From IMG/VR virus record IMGVR_UViG_3300036979_000173, positions 1 through 46,600 of that record: a stretch of DNA of 46,600 nucleotides, one strand, 5' to 3'. Positions within the stretch are counted from its first letter, which is position 1, and every line of letters begins with the position of its first letter. The notes under the pieces are model-generated. The model was not told the DNA's origin. It saw only the letters and a program-made list of their open reading frames with translations, and did no database searches. The stretch is from a virus. Below are positions 4,301-15,242 of this stretch, piece by piece. The position numbers and the translations under genes are program-made.

Positions 4301-4324
4301 ACTGACTTTGCCGCCGCCGCTGGA

Positions 4325-4379
4325 TTCCGTCGGGCGTTTTTCCGTCGGGCGTTTTTCCGTCGGGCGATTTCGTCGGGCG
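4325..4379 (+). repeat. Tandem CCGTCGGGCG repeats
   Basis: CCGTCGGGCG occurs at 4327-4336, 4342-4351 and 4357-4366 with a 15-bp period, plus a slightly altered fourth copy CGTCGGGCG at 4371-4379. It lies just past the stop of the last leftward gene. It forms no obvious hairpin, so it is not a standard terminator; a protein-binding array or slippage product is possible. Confidence 0.7.
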
Positions 4380-4604
4380 TTATAGAAGGTTGTCTATCTC
4401 GTGATGCTTGGCAGACTGTATTACAAGCTCCCTCACCATGTGCAGGGTGATGGGATCTCCGCTTTTAAGCTTGCCAGAATCGTGTTTGTCGCTCAATCGG
4501 ATCTCTGCCAGCAAGCCCTTGATCACCTCTAGGATGTCAAGGGATTTGAATGCCACCTCGTGTTCAAAGGATTCCAATCCGTCAAATTCTATTTTGTATT
4601 TCAT
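4380..4604 (-). CDS. Hypothetical protein, 74 aa, last gene of the leftward operon
   Basis: An acidic N-terminal strand region (MKYKIEFDGLESFEHEVAF) precedes a helical remainder (ILEVIKGLLAEIRLSD). The start overlaps the preceding stop as ATGA. Forty-four bases of this gene (4534-4577) recur exactly at 4814-4857, where they form the 3' end of another gene. No family is recognised. It is the final gene of the long leftward transcription unit. Confidence 0.7.
   Translation of the reverse strand: MKYKIEFDGLESFEHEVAFKSLDILEVIKGLLAEIRLSDKHDSGKLKSGDPITLHMVRELVIQSAKHHEIDNLL
4534..4577. repeat. 44-bp exact direct repeat, copy 1
   Basis: Identical to 4814-4857. Here it lies in frame inside the gene at 4380-4604 and encodes the LESFEHEVAFKSLDI segment. 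Confidence 0.9.
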
Positions 4605-4786
4605 GGATTGAGTCTTTCTATTTCCTGCTCAAGCTTTTTGATGAGGCGATCACGGATGTCGATCTCGTTGGAGAAGTATAACGCACGATCAATTGCCTCT
4701 AGCCTCTCACGTTCTGCAATCGCCAGTTCGTTCTCAAGACGTTCTGCGTATTCTGCTCTTACCCATTTTGCGAATAGTGTTTTCAT
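4601..4786 (-). CDS. Short coiled-coil protein, 61 aa
   Basis: Almost the whole product is charged helix (AEYAERLENELAIAERERLE, then IRDRLIKKLEQEIERLNP), predicted to be a coiled coil. The repeated ENEL/EIERL heptads resemble the TPRTDA-family proteins upstream, but the N-terminal tag is absent. It is coupled to the next gene by ATGA, and its own start overlaps the end of a remnant frame left by the 44-bp duplication. Role unknown; oligomerisation with the neighbouring coiled-coil proteins is a guess. Confidence 0.65.
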   Translation of the reverse strand: MKTLFAKWVRAEYAERLENELAIAERERLEAIDRALYFSNEIDIRDRLIKKLEQEIERLNP

Positions 4787-4813
4787 TTGATGCGTTCAGT
4801 TAATATGTCAAGT

Positions 4814-4857
4814 ATGTCAAGGGATTTGAATGCCACCTCGTGTTCAAAGGATTCCAA
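4814..4857. repeat. 44-bp exact direct repeat, copy 2 (gene remnant)
   Basis: Identical to 4534-4577. On the minus strand the copied frame still reads LESFEHEVAFKSLDI and runs on to a TGA overlapping the next ATG at 4786, but it has no start of its own. It supplies the stop codon of the gene at 4844-5263 in another frame, so it looks like a recombination scar. Confidence 0.75.
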
Positions 4858-5263
4858 GTACCCGATTGATTCTATCGTTGAGGATTCCAATTTTGTTTCC
4901 GTAATAGACGTTGCCATCTAGGCAAGCATTCTTCTCGGATTGTAATGCCGCAAGCTCTTTTTTAAGCACCAAGACCTCGGCCCCTAGCTTGTGATTTGTT
5001 TCGCTGGCATCCGCAAGAAGATGATCTAACCTCTCGACCTCTGCCTCTGCTCGTTCCGCTCGTTCGCAGTAGCTTAAACACTTTTCCTTCCAGTATTGAG
5101 GAGTTGTTTCCTGTTCTAATTTTTGGATTGCTTTATATTGACGAGCGCACAGAGCCTTTGCTTCCGTTAGTTCACGCTCAAGTTGTCTGGCGAAAAGATA
5201 AGGTTCGCAGTCATCGCCGCAGGTATTCCATGCGGCATCCGTTCTTGGTGTGTCGGTGTTCAT
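4844..5263 (-). CDS. TPRTDA-family coiled-coil protein, 139 aa
   Basis: Begins MNTDTPRTDAAWNTCGDDCE, giving the shared TDTPRTDA tag followed by a CxxxC pair (residues 15 and 19). The remainder is mostly coiled coil (RQLERELTEAKALC, ERAERAEAEVERL, VLVLKKELAALQSEKN). The leader CAAAAAAACAAA precedes the ATG, with no Shine-Dalgarno sequence, and the ATGA overlaps the preceding stop. The last residues (RVLGIL) and the stop are supplied by the duplicated 44-bp block, so the C-terminus may be shortened or altered compared with its ancestor. Function unknown. Confidence 0.75.
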   Translation of the reverse strand: MNTDTPRTDAAWNTCGDDCEPYLFARQLERELTEAKALCARQYKAIQKLEQETTPQYWKEKCLSYCERAERAEAEVERLDHLLADASETNHKLGAEVLVLKKELAALQSEKNACLDGNVYYGNKIGILNDRINRVLGIL

Positions 5264-5628
5264 TTTGTTTTTTTGTATGGGTTATGTTTATCGCAATAGA
5301 TTTGCAGGTAGTTGTCGCAACCGCATCCGTAGACGGCTGTCTCCAGTTTCTCCTTCAGCCTCTCGACCTCGGCCTCGGCTTTCTCGGCTCGCTCCTGCTC
5401 TCGTTTGGCGCGGGTGCCGTAGTCCCAATCGGCAAGCTCCTTCTTCAGCCGCTCGACCTCGGCTTCTGCTTCCATCTGCGTATCGAAGCGTGACCAAAGT
5501 TCGTTCAATTCTCGTTCCAGCTCTCTGGATAAAGCATACGAGTCCTCATGCTTTTTCAGCAGATCCTTTGGTTGTGGGGGGCAATGCCGAAACTCAATGG
5601 CATCGGTTCTCGGTGTGTCGGTTGTCAT
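5260..5628 (-). CDS. TPRTDA-family coiled-coil protein, 122 aa
   Basis: Starts MTTDTPRTDAIEFRHCPPQP. A coiled coil (about residues 25-100) includes ELERELNELWSRFD, which is almost repeated in the paralogue at 6013-6417, and two AEAEVERLKxxL heptad blocks. A Cys-rich end (YGCGCDNYLQIYCDKH) could bind a metal. ATGA-coupled to its neighbours on both sides. No known family; the duplicated modules show that the genes of this cluster exchange parts. Confidence 0.75.
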   Translation of the reverse strand: MTTDTPRTDAIEFRHCPPQPKDLLKKHEDSYALSRELERELNELWSRFDTQMEAEAEVERLKKELADWDYGTRAKREQERAEKAEAEVERLKEKLETAVYGCGCDNYLQIYCDKHNPYKKTK

Positions 5629-5903
5629 TTGTTGGTTGTGTTTAGAGCTTCTACAAATGCGTGGATTTGCTTGAGTAGGGTTTCGGCTTTTTCAGCCCTT
5701 TCTATTAGATGCTTGGATCGTTCATCGCTTATTTTAGCGCAGTCCATTACCATCTCGTTCAGCCTCTCGACCTCGGCTTTTGATGCGGCGAGTTCTCGCT
5801 CTAGTCCTTCGGCAAACTCTACTGGAACTGCTTCCACCATAAATGGACGATCTCCGTAGAGTTCAATGGCGGCATCGGTGCGTGGTGTGTCGGTGGTGGT
5901 CAT
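5625..5903 (-). CDS. TPRTDA-family coiled-coil protein, 92 aa
   Basis: Begins MTTTDTPRTDAAIELYGDRP. Residues 30-85 are coiled coil (GLERELAASKAEVERLNEMV, RSKHLIERAEKAETLLKQI). It lacks the Cys-rich tails of two paralogues. It starts a short run of three ATGA-coupled family members. Function unknown. Confidence 0.75.
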   Translation of the reverse strand: MTTTDTPRTDAAIELYGDRPFMVEAVPVEFAEGLERELAASKAEVERLNEMVMDCAKISDERSKHLIERAEKAETLLKQIHAFVEALNTTNK

Positions 5904-5905
5904 TT

Positions 5906-6016
5906 TTAGTGTTTAAGCAGGCGGACAATTAAACTACCGATGCCGAAGCAAACGCAGATTAATAAGTAAGTGCATAACGCAATCCAGATTCGTTTTTTTA
6001 TTTCAGTTTGTTTCAT
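5906..6016 (-). CDS. Small membrane protein, 36 aa
   Basis: MKQTEIKKRIWIALCTYLLI continues into CVCFGIGSLIVRLLKH: a basic N-terminus, one membrane helix of about 22 residues and a basic end. The start at 6016 is fixed by an ATGA overlap with the upstream TPRTDA-family gene. It is one of several tiny membrane proteins interspersed with this family (also 6596-6724 and 9118-9339), which makes a membrane-linked complex conceivable but unproven. Confidence 0.6.
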   Translation of the reverse strand: MKQTEIKKRIWIALCTYLLICVCFGIGSLIVRLLKH

Positions 6017-6417
6017 TTGTTTAATAGGTCGTGGTATCTGTTCATAATCTCTCGGACTTCCTGCTCGGTTGGAAAGTCGCGGCGAGACCATTCATAAAAC
6101 TCTTGGATGAGTTCTTGAAGGCAGACATTTTCAGTATGGAGTTTATCAATTTCCGCTTGAGCGTTTTTACAGGTTTCAAGGTGGGCTTTCCTTGCCTTCT
6201 TCCAGCCATCGTGAAGCCCTTTAATAAGGTCTTCTGCTTCTTTCATGCGTTGTGTAAGCCTCTCGACCTCGGCCTCCGCATCCATCTGCTTATCAAATCG
6301 TGACCAGAGTTCGTTGAGTTCTCGTTCCAGCTTCTGCATCTCGCTTGTGATGTGATAGGGCCAGTTGGACGATGCCATGACGGCATCCGTTCGCGGGGTG
6401 TCGGTGGTGGGTGTCAT
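6013..6417 (-). CDS. TPRTDA-family coiled-coil protein, 134 aa
   Basis: Starts MTPTTDTPRTDAVMASSNWP. Its middle (LERELNELWSRFDKQMDAEA) matches the paralogue at 5260-5628, while its C-terminal 75 residues (from EDLIKGLHDGWKKARKAHLE to the end in LLNK) are nearly identical to the C-terminus of the gene at 7041-7484. It is therefore a mosaic of two relatives. The conserved tail ends with an aromatic, acidic segment (QEFYEWSRRDFPTEQEVREI). ATGA-coupled at both ends. Function unknown. Confidence 0.8.
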   Translation of the reverse strand: MTPTTDTPRTDAVMASSNWPYHITSEMQKLERELNELWSRFDKQMDAEAEVERLTQRMKEAEDLIKGLHDGWKKARKAHLETCKNAQAEIDKLHTENVCLQELIQEFYEWSRRDFPTEQEVREIMNRYHDLLNK

Positions 6418-6599
6418 TTTGTTTCTAAGTGTTTGACTATGTGATCGACGGCTAACCCAAGGGATTGAATTATGCGAGCCAGTCGCCGACCATCCGAAGT
6501 TGTTGATTCAAATGTTCTACTTAACAAGGACGCATCGTCTAAAAGCTTTTTGGCATCAGTTAGGTCAGCATCGGTTCGCGGGGTGTCGGTGGTTGTCAT
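6414..6599 (-). CDS. TPRTDA-family protein, 61 aa, short form
   Basis: Start 6599 is set by the ATGA overlap with the membrane protein upstream and by the family N-terminus MTTTDTPRTDADLTDAKKLL. It is the shortest member: the tag is followed by about 50 helical residues without the long heptad repeats of the others. This shows that the tag is kept even when the coiled coil is not. Role unknown. Confidence 0.75.
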   Translation of the reverse strand: MTTTDTPRTDADLTDAKKLLDDASLLSRTFESTTSDGRRLARIIQSLGLAVDHIVKHLETK

Positions 6600-6724
6600 T
6601 TTGATTTGGTGAGTTTGTCGATGGCATACATCACTACGAACAGAGCGCAAAAGACGAAGATAAAACCAAGTACCTCGCTTGCGGCCTTGGCTAACCAGAA
6701 CATGATTGCGTCGTGAAAGCTCAT
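6596..6724 (-). CDS. Small membrane protein, 42 aa
   Basis: MSFHDAIMFWLAKAASEVLG is followed by FIFVFCALFVVMYAIDKLTK and SK: an amphipathic start, one membrane helix (about residues 17-35) and a basic tail. ATGA overlaps on both sides (with 6414-6599 downstream and 6721-7044 upstream) fix the start and make it a convincing gene despite its size. Function unknown. Confidence 0.7.
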   Translation of the reverse strand: MSFHDAIMFWLAKAASEVLGFIFVFCALFVVMYAIDKLTKSK

Positions 6725-7044
6725 TTTAATTCGGTTGCGTGCTTCCAAGTGTATTCATCATTTTCCTCGGAATACTCCTGCTCCCAAGTGACGATGGCTT
6801 TCGCTTTTCCGTTGTTTCCCCAACCGGAGAAGCCCATAGCCCGTTCCCTGATTTCAATGGTAACTGGGCCATCATTAACATCGGTGCATGGTTCTGATCC
6901 TGATGTTGCGACTTCTAACGCTTCTTCCAACGTATAATACAATCCGAGGCAATAATAAGTTTCGTCGCAAGTTTGATCAACGAGTTCAAAAATTGAGTTC
7001 GGTAGGGCTTCAGCGATGGCGCGGTTGATTTTGTCAGGTGTCAT
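6721..7044 (-). CDS. Hypothetical acidic protein, 107 aa
   Basis: Start 7044 (MTPDKINRAIAEALP) is chosen for its ATGA overlap with the upstream gene. The protein is acidic and soluble, with a helical N-terminus, a Cys/Tyr-rich stretch (DQTCDETYYCLGLYYTLEEA) and a strand-rich end (AKAIVTWEQEYSEENDEYTW). No motif is recognised. It lies between two TPRTDA-family genes but has no tag itself. Confidence 0.7.
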   Translation of the reverse strand: MTPDKINRAIAEALPNSIFELVDQTCDETYYCLGLYYTLEEALEVATSGSEPCTDVNDGPVTIEIRERAMGFSGWGNNGKAKAIVTWEQEYSEENDEYTWKHATELK

Positions 7045-7484
7045 TTGTTTAATAGGTTGTAGTAGCGATCCATGATCTCTCGGACTTCGGATTCGGTCGG
7101 GTAGTCTCGCCGTGACCACTCGTAAAACTCTTGGATGAGTTCTTGGAGGCACACGTTTTCGGCGTGGAGTTTGTCGATTTCTCGTTGAGCGTTTTTACAA
7201 GTTTCAAGGTGGGCTTTCCTTGCTTTCTTCCACCCATCGTGAAGCCCTTTAATTAGGTCTTCTGCTTTTTTCGTTCTGCCTGTAAGCATCTCGACCTCGG
7301 CCTCTAGCTTATGGCTCTTATCGCGTTCGCGGCACAACCTAGAACGAGGGTCGGAGCAGAACATATTGTGGTCAGCCATAGTTCCGCACCCGTATTCGGC
7401 TCCAAAGTTTCCAGCCCCGCAATGGGGGCAGGCATCCGTTCGCGGCGTATTGCTCACTTTGTTCGTGTCGGTGTGTGGGTTCAT
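7041..7484 (-). CDS. TPRTDA-family protein with zinc-ribbon-like Cys, 147 aa
   Basis: The start at 7484 is favoured by the ATGA overlap; an ATG two codons earlier (7490) is also possible. The tag appears as SNTPRTDACPHCG near residues 11-23, followed by CPHCG, FGAEYGCGT and further Cys residues that could form a zinc site. The C-terminal 75 residues are nearly identical to those of the paralogue at 6013-6417, including the segment EDLIKGLHDGWKKARKAHLE. It appears to be the most elaborate family member. Confidence 0.8.
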   Translation of the reverse strand: MNPHTDTNKVSNTPRTDACPHCGAGNFGAEYGCGTMADHNMFCSDPRSRLCRERDKSHKLEAEVEMLTGRTKKAEDLIKGLHDGWKKARKAHLETCKNAQREIDKLHAENVCLQELIQEFYEWSRRDYPTESEVREIMDRYYNLLNK

Positions 7485-7690
7485 TTCCATTCTTTGGCTA
7501 GGGGTGAGTTTTTGATTGCCTTCATAAGCATGTCGGCAAGAGGTTCGTGTTTTTCTGGATCTGTTGCCCTGTATCGCCCAATAACACTAGGCCATTTCCA
7601 AATCCTTGCTTCTCGGATTCGGCCTGTGTAATCGAGCGACCACCCAAGATCCAAGGCTTCAAGTTGCCTAATTATTTCATCGGCGTTCAT
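7481..7690 (-). CDS. Hypothetical protein, 69 aa
   Basis: MNADEIIRQLEALDLGWSLD begins a small mixed protein with a Trp-rich centre (REARIWKWPSVIGRY). Both ends overlap neighbours as ATGA. No motif recognised; codon pattern and packing are like those of its neighbours. Confidence 0.7.
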   Translation of the reverse strand: MNADEIIRQLEALDLGWSLDYTGRIREARIWKWPSVIGRYRATDPEKHEPLADMLMKAIKNSPLAKEWK

Positions 7691-14162: not shown

Positions 14163-14458
14163 CTCCCTCGTTTAATTAAAAACCGCATCATGGCAACAGA
14201 TCCTTCTGATGTGGAGATTGTATAAACTAATCCTGTAGCAACAATTTTCCAAAATCCACCAGTAGTCATGGATGACCACAATTGACCCCAAATCAAGGCA
14301 GACACTAGGAAGTAAATGCCGTTGGATGCAATTGCCGCCCACCTATGATGTTCAACGTCCTGTTGATTCCTTGATCTTGAGGCCCAAGTTCCAGCCATGT
14401 TTTGAACAAATCCCAACACACCAATGGCAATTAGCATTATGATCTCTTTATCCGTCAT
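14159..14458 (-). CDS. Three-helix membrane protein, 99 aa
   Basis: Start 14458 (MTDKEIIMLIAIGVLGFVQN) overlaps the PP-loop enzyme's end by 11 nt, and the stop overlaps the terminase start as ATGA. Membrane helices lie near residues 6-24, 45-64 and 67-88 (ASNGIYFLVSALIWGQLW, GGFWKIVATGLVYTIS). A membrane protein wedged between packaging genes is unusual; holin- or exclusion-type roles are possible but unsupported. No homologue is recognised. Confidence 0.65.
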   Translation of the reverse strand: MTDKEIIMLIAIGVLGFVQNMAGTWASRSRNQQDVEHHRWAAIASNGIYFLVSALIWGQLWSSMTTGGFWKIVATGLVYTISTSEGSVAMMRFLIKRGR

Positions 14459-15242
14459 AGCATCCGCATGGAACTTTAGCCGCATCATTTTCATCAAGCC
14501 ATTCAAACATTTTCATTTGCTCGTCATCAGCGGCAACAATGTCGCTCCACTTCACTCCAAAATGCAACCCCTCAACCCTGCCCTTGATGTTCATGTTTTG
14601 CTCAAGCTGAATCGCCCTCTCAAAGTATTCTGGGTAATCTTTGCGTAGCCGAATTATTTCGGACAACTTCATTGATGGGCAGAAAAAGCAAGACGATTTT
14701 CCGACCAATGGCAGGCCATGCCGCTTGATTGTTGCGATGCAATCCTGTCTTTTCCACATCCATTCAATTAATGGAAACCATGATGTCTCAACCCTGCCAC
14801 GACCAACTTCATTTTGCTTAATTCCTATTGATCTGTGCCCCTCACCAGCGTCATATCCAACGGCAGAAATGACATTGTTGTAATCTCGTTCTGCCATCCA
14901 CTTGTTTACAAATTTGTGCTTTGGCTCTAGTTTGTATTTAACCGAGCAAGCCTTGGAACCGAATGCAAGTGCTGGAAGTGTTTTATTCCTCAAGCAATCA
15001 GCCTCTAGTGATGTTTGTTCCTTTTTGTATGTTTTGGCAACAATTTCAATTGGCAAGCCCCACCACTCCCTTGTCTTTTCAGACATCATTTTGATATGGT
15101 TGTAAGTATGTGGAAGCTCACCACCAGTATCAGAAAATATGATAAGCTCTGGTTTTATGTTGCGATCCAAGAATCCACATAGCATTGCAACGCTGTTTGT
15201 GCCGCCACCATAAGCGACAACTATTGGAAGTTCATCTTTCAT
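14448..15242 (-). CDS. PP-loop ATP-pyrophosphatase / PAPS reductase-like enzyme, 264 aa
   Basis: Adenine-nucleotide alpha-hydrolase fold. The PP-loop reads AYGGGTNSVAM (10-20), where the canonical SGGxDS has become GGGTNS, so catalysis may differ. FSDTGGE (36-42) is the second family motif, and Cys motifs ACSVKYK (98-104) and KSSCFFCP (182-189) could bind an iron-sulphur cluster or zinc. Related phage enzymes are annotated as PAPS reductases; DndC-type sulphur modification and base-modification enzymes share the fold. The target is unknown. A GGAGG ribosome site eight bases before the ATG is buried in a perfect hairpin (15248-15273). Confidence 0.8.
   Translation of the reverse strand: MKDELPIVVAYGGGTNSVAMLCGFLDRNIKPELIIFSDTGGELPHTYNHIKMMSEKTREWWGLPIEIVAKTYKKEQTSLEADCLRNKTLPALAFGSKACSVKYKLEPKHKFVNKWMAERDYNNVISAVGYDAGEGHRSIGIKQNEVGRGRVETSWFPLIEWMWKRQDCIATIKRHGLPLVGKSSCFFCPSMKLSEIIRLRKDYPEYFERAIQLEQNMNIKGRVEGLHFGVKWSDIVAADDEQMKMFEWLDENDAAKVPCGCYDG

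Follow-up and report, generated by a model that had tools for sequence, protein, structure and literature searches.

A probable family of small, modular phage proteins with a common TPRTDA head and parts joined at conserved coding words

The window analysed here is the entire 46,600-base IMG/VR virus record, a phage-like sequence with genes for a terminase, a DnaB-like helicase and virion proteins. It also carries a phosphoadenosine phosphosulfate reductase gene (14448-15242; phrog_424, E 8e-36), a phage-borne gene of sulfur metabolism. Six small genes beginning with the peptide TPRTDA, all on the minus strand, occupy the distal end of a long run of genes in that orientation. Replication genes are among the neighbours of the run, and genes for an exonuclease and an SSB-like protein adjoin the six. 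Three pairs of neighbouring reading frames meet in ATGA overlaps (5260-5263, 5625-5628 and 6414-6417). The tagged genes and the small membrane protein genes between them are:

4844..5263, minus strand: gene 1, 139 aa; tag, FARQLEREL, coil and the C-terminal module NACLDGNVYYGNKI
5260..5628, minus strand: gene 2, 122 aa; tag, ALSRELEREL and coil, with the AEVERL word present twice
5625..5903, minus strand: gene 3, 92 aa; tag, hairpin and FAEGLEREL coil; AlphaFold pLDDT 91
5906..6016, minus strand: small membrane protein, 36 aa; hydropathy 2.4
6013..6417, minus strand: gene 4, 134 aa; chimera of a gene 2-like first half and a gene 6-like second half
6414..6599, minus strand: gene 5, 61 aa; short form with the tag and no LEREL; true start at 6599
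6596..6724, minus strand: small membrane protein, 42 aa; hydropathy 2.5
7041..7490, minus strand: gene 6, 149 aa; tag at residue 15, zinc-ribbon-like segment CPHCG...CGT, C-terminal module common with gene 4

An earlier, sequence-only reading had described these genes as six tagged proteins interleaved with small membrane proteins. The shared N-terminal TPRTDA is present in all six, at residues 5-7 in five of them and at residue 15 in the sixth; the interleaving holds for the two membrane proteins listed, whereas a third interleaved gene (6721-7044) encodes a non-membrane protein. Modules of these genes recur in other loci: the C-terminal module of gene 1 is also present in L042 and L079, and the N-terminal module of gene 2 is found with other tails in L035, L039, L086, L108, L122 and L129. 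A-rich leaders with no evident Shine-Dalgarno sequence precede several of the tagged-gene starts (upstream of 5263, 5628, 5903 and 6417). Downstream of the cluster, a 50-nt stretch (LESFEHEVAFKSLDIL) occurs twice with 96% identity (4528-4577 and 4808-4857) in two further small ORFs, the second copy lying inside an ORF (4783-4917) that shares bases with the end of gene 1 but is read in a different frame, and short GC-rich repeats (CCGTCGGGCGTTTTT) at 4314-4381, just beyond the end of the gene cluster, are possibly terminator-like.

The record contains exactly six places that encode TPRTDA, all in these genes, and none that encodes the reversed pattern:

5234..5251, minus strand: TPRTDA codons of gene 1
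5599..5616, minus strand: TPRTDA codons of gene 2
5871..5888, minus strand: TPRTDA codons of gene 3
6382..6399, minus strand: TPRTDA codons of gene 4
6567..6584, minus strand: TPRTDA codons of gene 5
7431..7448, minus strand: TPRTDA codons of gene 6

These places have six distinct DNA spellings, and all 46 pairwise nucleotide differences among them are synonymous, in agreement with the earlier proposal that the peptide rather than the DNA is under selection. Across 191 related genes the tag codons are mostly near background freedom (1.92 bits against a background of 1.96 for the second Thr, 1.87 against 1.96 for Ala and 2.15 against 2.46 for Arg). With codon freedom computed relative to background over all pentapeptides occurring in at least 20 distinct contexts, pieces of TPRTDA, FARQL and LEREL score 0.82-0.89 (TPRTD 0.85, LEREL 0.83). 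It is therefore highly improbable that the tag exists as a repeat or recombination site at the DNA level, with its peptide a by-product, a reading that the codon data, with no codon-identical copies, already largely refute. The start region (MSDTP, TTDTP) does have reduced codon freedom (0.38-0.50), and a first count placed 13 of 171 chimera junctions in the tag against 3.3% expected, but after stricter de-duplication the tag holds 5.9% of the junctions against 3.2% (p = 0.09), an excess that is not significant, and the tag was rejected as the main recombination joint. One gene in another locus (L002:5488-5742) carries a tandem-duplicated tag (TDTPRTDTPRTDA).

The N-terminal tag recurs among metagenomic phages, where 106 of 133 tag places have an ATG at most 15 codons upstream, compared with 2 of 15 places for a permuted-peptide control. 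The DTPRTDA coding pattern was found in at least 119 stretches of IMG/VR, against 15 in the whole collection for the permuted DATPRTD. A stricter pattern of the start region was found in at least 120 viral stretches, whereas 257 Gb of genomes from bacteria and archaea gave only two matches, which makes the family essentially a viral one. Of these two, one is apparently spurious and looks like a chance match in Mycobacterium; the second, a true member, sits on an 11-kb contig within a metagenome-assembled genome and may come from a mis-binned phage. Several tagged genes occur per genome, and the earlier view that the tag marks a set of phage accessory proteins is supported.

The tag makes up one half of a two-part N-terminal module of the form [M-(S/T)]-D-TPRTDA-x(~15-30)-FARxLEREL, whose conservation at the peptide level extends over about 200 non-redundant proteins from environmental phages, although the apparent constancy of the tag is inflated by the retrieval of most loci through the tag and by the requirement for a preceding D or N in two of the scans. 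The tagged proteins had been said to diverge after the tag; this does not hold as simple divergence, as the second block, V..(D/E)FAR(Q/E)LEREL, is common to 159 of 202 curated members at a median of 21 residues after the tag. When FARxLERE alone served as the query, among loci that were largely tag-fetched and partly non-independent, 121 of the 134 proteins found had TPRTD, and a further 10 had a near variant of the tag (e.g. TPLTDA, TPMTDA, TPQTDA or TPKTDS). Twelve members, and gene 6 likewise, have a CPxC zinc-ribbon-like segment after the tag in place of the second block.

The module is represented by no model in Pfam, PHROGs or NCBIfam; scans of the six proteins against these libraries gave generic coiled-coil matches, those from Pfam and NCBIfam falling below the curated cut-offs. 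Sequence and fold searches of the PDB returned coiled coils or nothing significant, and a viral fold library returned two uncharacterised phage proteins with probabilities of 0.97-0.99 but with E above 0.1. A tblastn search of cultured phages and plasmids gave no convincing member, although BLAST serves short motifs poorly, and the string TPRTDA was not found in the literature searched.

AlphaFold models of gene 3 of the window (mean pLDDT 91) and of a divergent member, L123 (mean 71), have the same topology: a short helix containing TDA, two short strands forming a beta hairpin, and a long helix starting from FA.xLEREL. The tag is thus predicted to begin a small cap (short helix and beta hairpin) at the start of the coiled coil, with the tag residues themselves modelled at low confidence (mean pLDDT of 63 over the first ten residues in both models). 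The agreement of two divergent models and the conserved bipartite spacing would fit a tag whose sole role is as a structural N-cap for hairpin and coiled coil and whose conservation serves folding alone; we regard this as possible but rather doubtful, in that all six residues are invariant, which is more than a helix cap needs, and the tag persists in members without LEREL and before the zinc-ribbon-like segment. Such a cap, predicted to be partly folded, may nevertheless explain part of the conservation of the tag. The tag had also been proposed to serve in docking or processing; nothing speaks for processing, and docking is partly supported. Docking to a partner is possible because the tag is kept in members without LEREL, which speaks for some independent role. 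In its strongest form, in which TPRTDA is a short linear motif that docks all tagged proteins to a single host or phage protein whatever fold lies behind it, this explanation is quite conceivable while somewhat short of probable: the tag is retained without FARxLEREL, for example in gene 5, gene 6 and the 12 CPxC members, the segments after it are very different, and there are several tagged genes per genome, but tag and LEREL co-occur in most members and the last tag residues are modelled as helix.

A second element of the family behaves differently at the level of DNA. The heptad of the coiled coil that reads AEVERL is encoded by a nearly fixed 17-bp word, GCCGAGGTCGAGAGGCT, almost always spelled GCC GAG GTC GAG AGG CTN, and by the measure of codon freedom applied to the tag, AEVER scores 0.29 and EVARL 0.28. 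The copies in the tagged genes are:

5028..5044, minus strand: joint word (AEVERL) of gene 1; 2 mismatches
5357..5373, minus strand: joint word of gene 2, second copy; exact
5447..5463, minus strand: joint word of gene 2, first copy; 1 mismatch
5761..5777, minus strand: joint word of gene 3; exact; junction of the L002 chimera
6257..6273, minus strand: joint word of gene 4; exact; similarity changes here from gene 2 to gene 6
7285..7301, minus strand: joint word of gene 6; 1 mismatch

Genes that carry the word are often alike on only one side of it. Gene 2 and gene 4 are 83% identical upstream of the word (60 nt) and 25% identical downstream, whereas gene 4 and gene 6 are 25% identical upstream and 85% downstream. 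A gene of L002, a relative, matches gene 3 of the window in its N-terminal half (96%, 135 nt) and gene 4 in its C-terminal half (94%, 401 nt), the two matches overlapping at 5116-5134, which is the word. Genes of the domain-shuffled kind, with two unrelated parts that are each near-identical to part of a different gene, are thus present in the family. At 103 non-redundant copies of the word, the gene pairs that resemble each other do so upstream alone in 41 cases, downstream alone in 49 and on both flanks in 4, with identity dropping at the edges of the word. An unbiased scan in which no word was named likewise found pieces of this word to be the k-mers most enriched at alignment ends. In a comparison of 118 de-duplicated three-way chimera junctions with random intervals of equal length, the word lies at 12 junctions (10.2% against 3.2% expected, p = 4e-4), its EV core at 19 (16% against 4.9%, p = 4e-6) and any conserved block at 35 (11% expected). 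About 70% of the junctions are elsewhere, so the word is a favoured joint and not an exclusive one. The gene comparisons show that genes exchange the parts behind the head, evidently by recombination, and preferentially at conserved coding words, above all GCCGAGGTCGAGAGGCT. As dN/dS over the tag is trivial, with zero nonsynonymous change, the ratio was measured instead on the C-terminal module shared by genes 4 and 6, where dN of 0.088 and dS of 0.79 (dN/dS about 0.11) indicate working proteins.

The sharp edges of this conservation, and word codons much more fixed than those of the neighbouring conserved peptides, could be taken to mean that the word is a dedicated DNA element, a binding or recombinase site, rather than ordinary homology used by general phage recombination. 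We consider this unlikely: the word is not palindromic, AEVERL is the longest open frame at 96 of 103 places, and an exonuclease and an SSB-like protein, of kinds used in general phage recombination, are encoded next to the cluster. The exact 17-mer is also present in unrelated coiled-coil genes of other phages. The idea of a word unique to the tagged family was accordingly rejected: coiled coils outside the family can use it too. The fixed codons could partly reflect recent common descent. For the exchange by general recombination, homeologous recombination by Red-like systems (PMC2327257) is a plausible engine of mosaicism, with the exonuclease and SSB-like genes of the window adjoining the cluster; no annealase was identified among the window proteins scanned.

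The closest known kind of protein is that of Ead/Ea22 and the EaE-like accessory proteins of lambdoid and other enterobacterial phages (PF13935; PHROGs 614, 492 and 368). These too are small mosaic phage proteins with an end domain, a coiled coil and a variable end, and they contain a TPxTDA block followed by a FAxQL block, an arrangement found also in the family of the window. They differ in that their block is TPATDA and lies in the C-terminal part, whereas TPRTDA lies at the N-terminus. With the enterobacterial block TPATDAFLAEVRAQGVEM as query, 250 records of cultured phages matched at E up to 10, and 118 when E was limited to 0.1; their annotations included EaE and Ea22-like. In 12 aligned proteins the Ea block is in the C-terminal part, with FAxQLR-like residues then near the very end, unlike flanks and well-conserved DNA. 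The TPATDAFLAEVRAQGV block of Ea proteins is common to otherwise different proteins; in L253, L254 and L257-L266 its DNA stays conserved while the flanks are unlike, much as that of a recombination joint would.

The window proteins nevertheless stand outside the existing models of this kind. PF13935 matched none of them at E up to 1 and none reached its gathering score, where Ea22 of phage ev099, as a control, scores 38 bits against a cut-off of 27; for PHROGs 614, 492 and 368 there were only weak phrog_614 matches of genes 4 and 6 (E 0.04-0.2), with the EaE proteins of phages HK544 and SF11 reaching 7e-57 or better. Alignment of the two modules with hhalign gave 9 aligned columns (probability 72%, pairwise E 3.5e-5). 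Full-length lambda Ea22 forms a tetramer and promotes lysogeny, and its C-terminal domain is variable (PMC10834534, PMC7093339). The window proteins and Ea22/EaE may work alike. A second comparison is with domain-shuffled phage proteins (mainly tail fibres, endolysins and replication proteins; PMC10684548), in which in-frame fragments are likewise exchanged between phages in an ongoing process; the present proteins differ in being tiny accessory coiled-coil proteins whose head is near-invariant and whose coding sequence contains a recurrent short joint. The text of PMC10684548 does not contain the term Ea22 and uses 'coiled' once.

Taken together, we consider it probable that the tagged genes encode a family of small modular phage accessory proteins that have a common head and exchanged parts joined at coding words. 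The common head would either drive assembly into homo- or hetero-oligomers or dock the proteins to one shared partner; the AEVERL word would join the halves in frame inside the coiled coil; and the swapped middle and C-terminal pieces would carry different activities, such that a phage could combine one constant head with many effectors. By gene position, small size and analogy, the tagged proteins most likely act on the host cell. More tentatively, the family may follow a scheme of combinatorial assembly, in which a constant head, exchangeable middles (of hairpin or zinc-ribbon type) and tails are shuffled in frame at the 17-bp coding word in the coiled coil, and in which the DNA of the word, unlike that of the tag, would be held constant to keep working as a joint.

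The head pattern provides a rule by which a large family of phage proteins, unannotated and missed by current family libraries, can be recognised. The family would show how many proteins can be made from one constant head through recombination inside coiled coils at a short coding word, and gives an example, open to testing, of domain shuffling within genes that involves neither introns nor a known dedicated recombinase. It also suggests that the TPATDA blocks of the lambdoid Ea proteins may obey the same logic.
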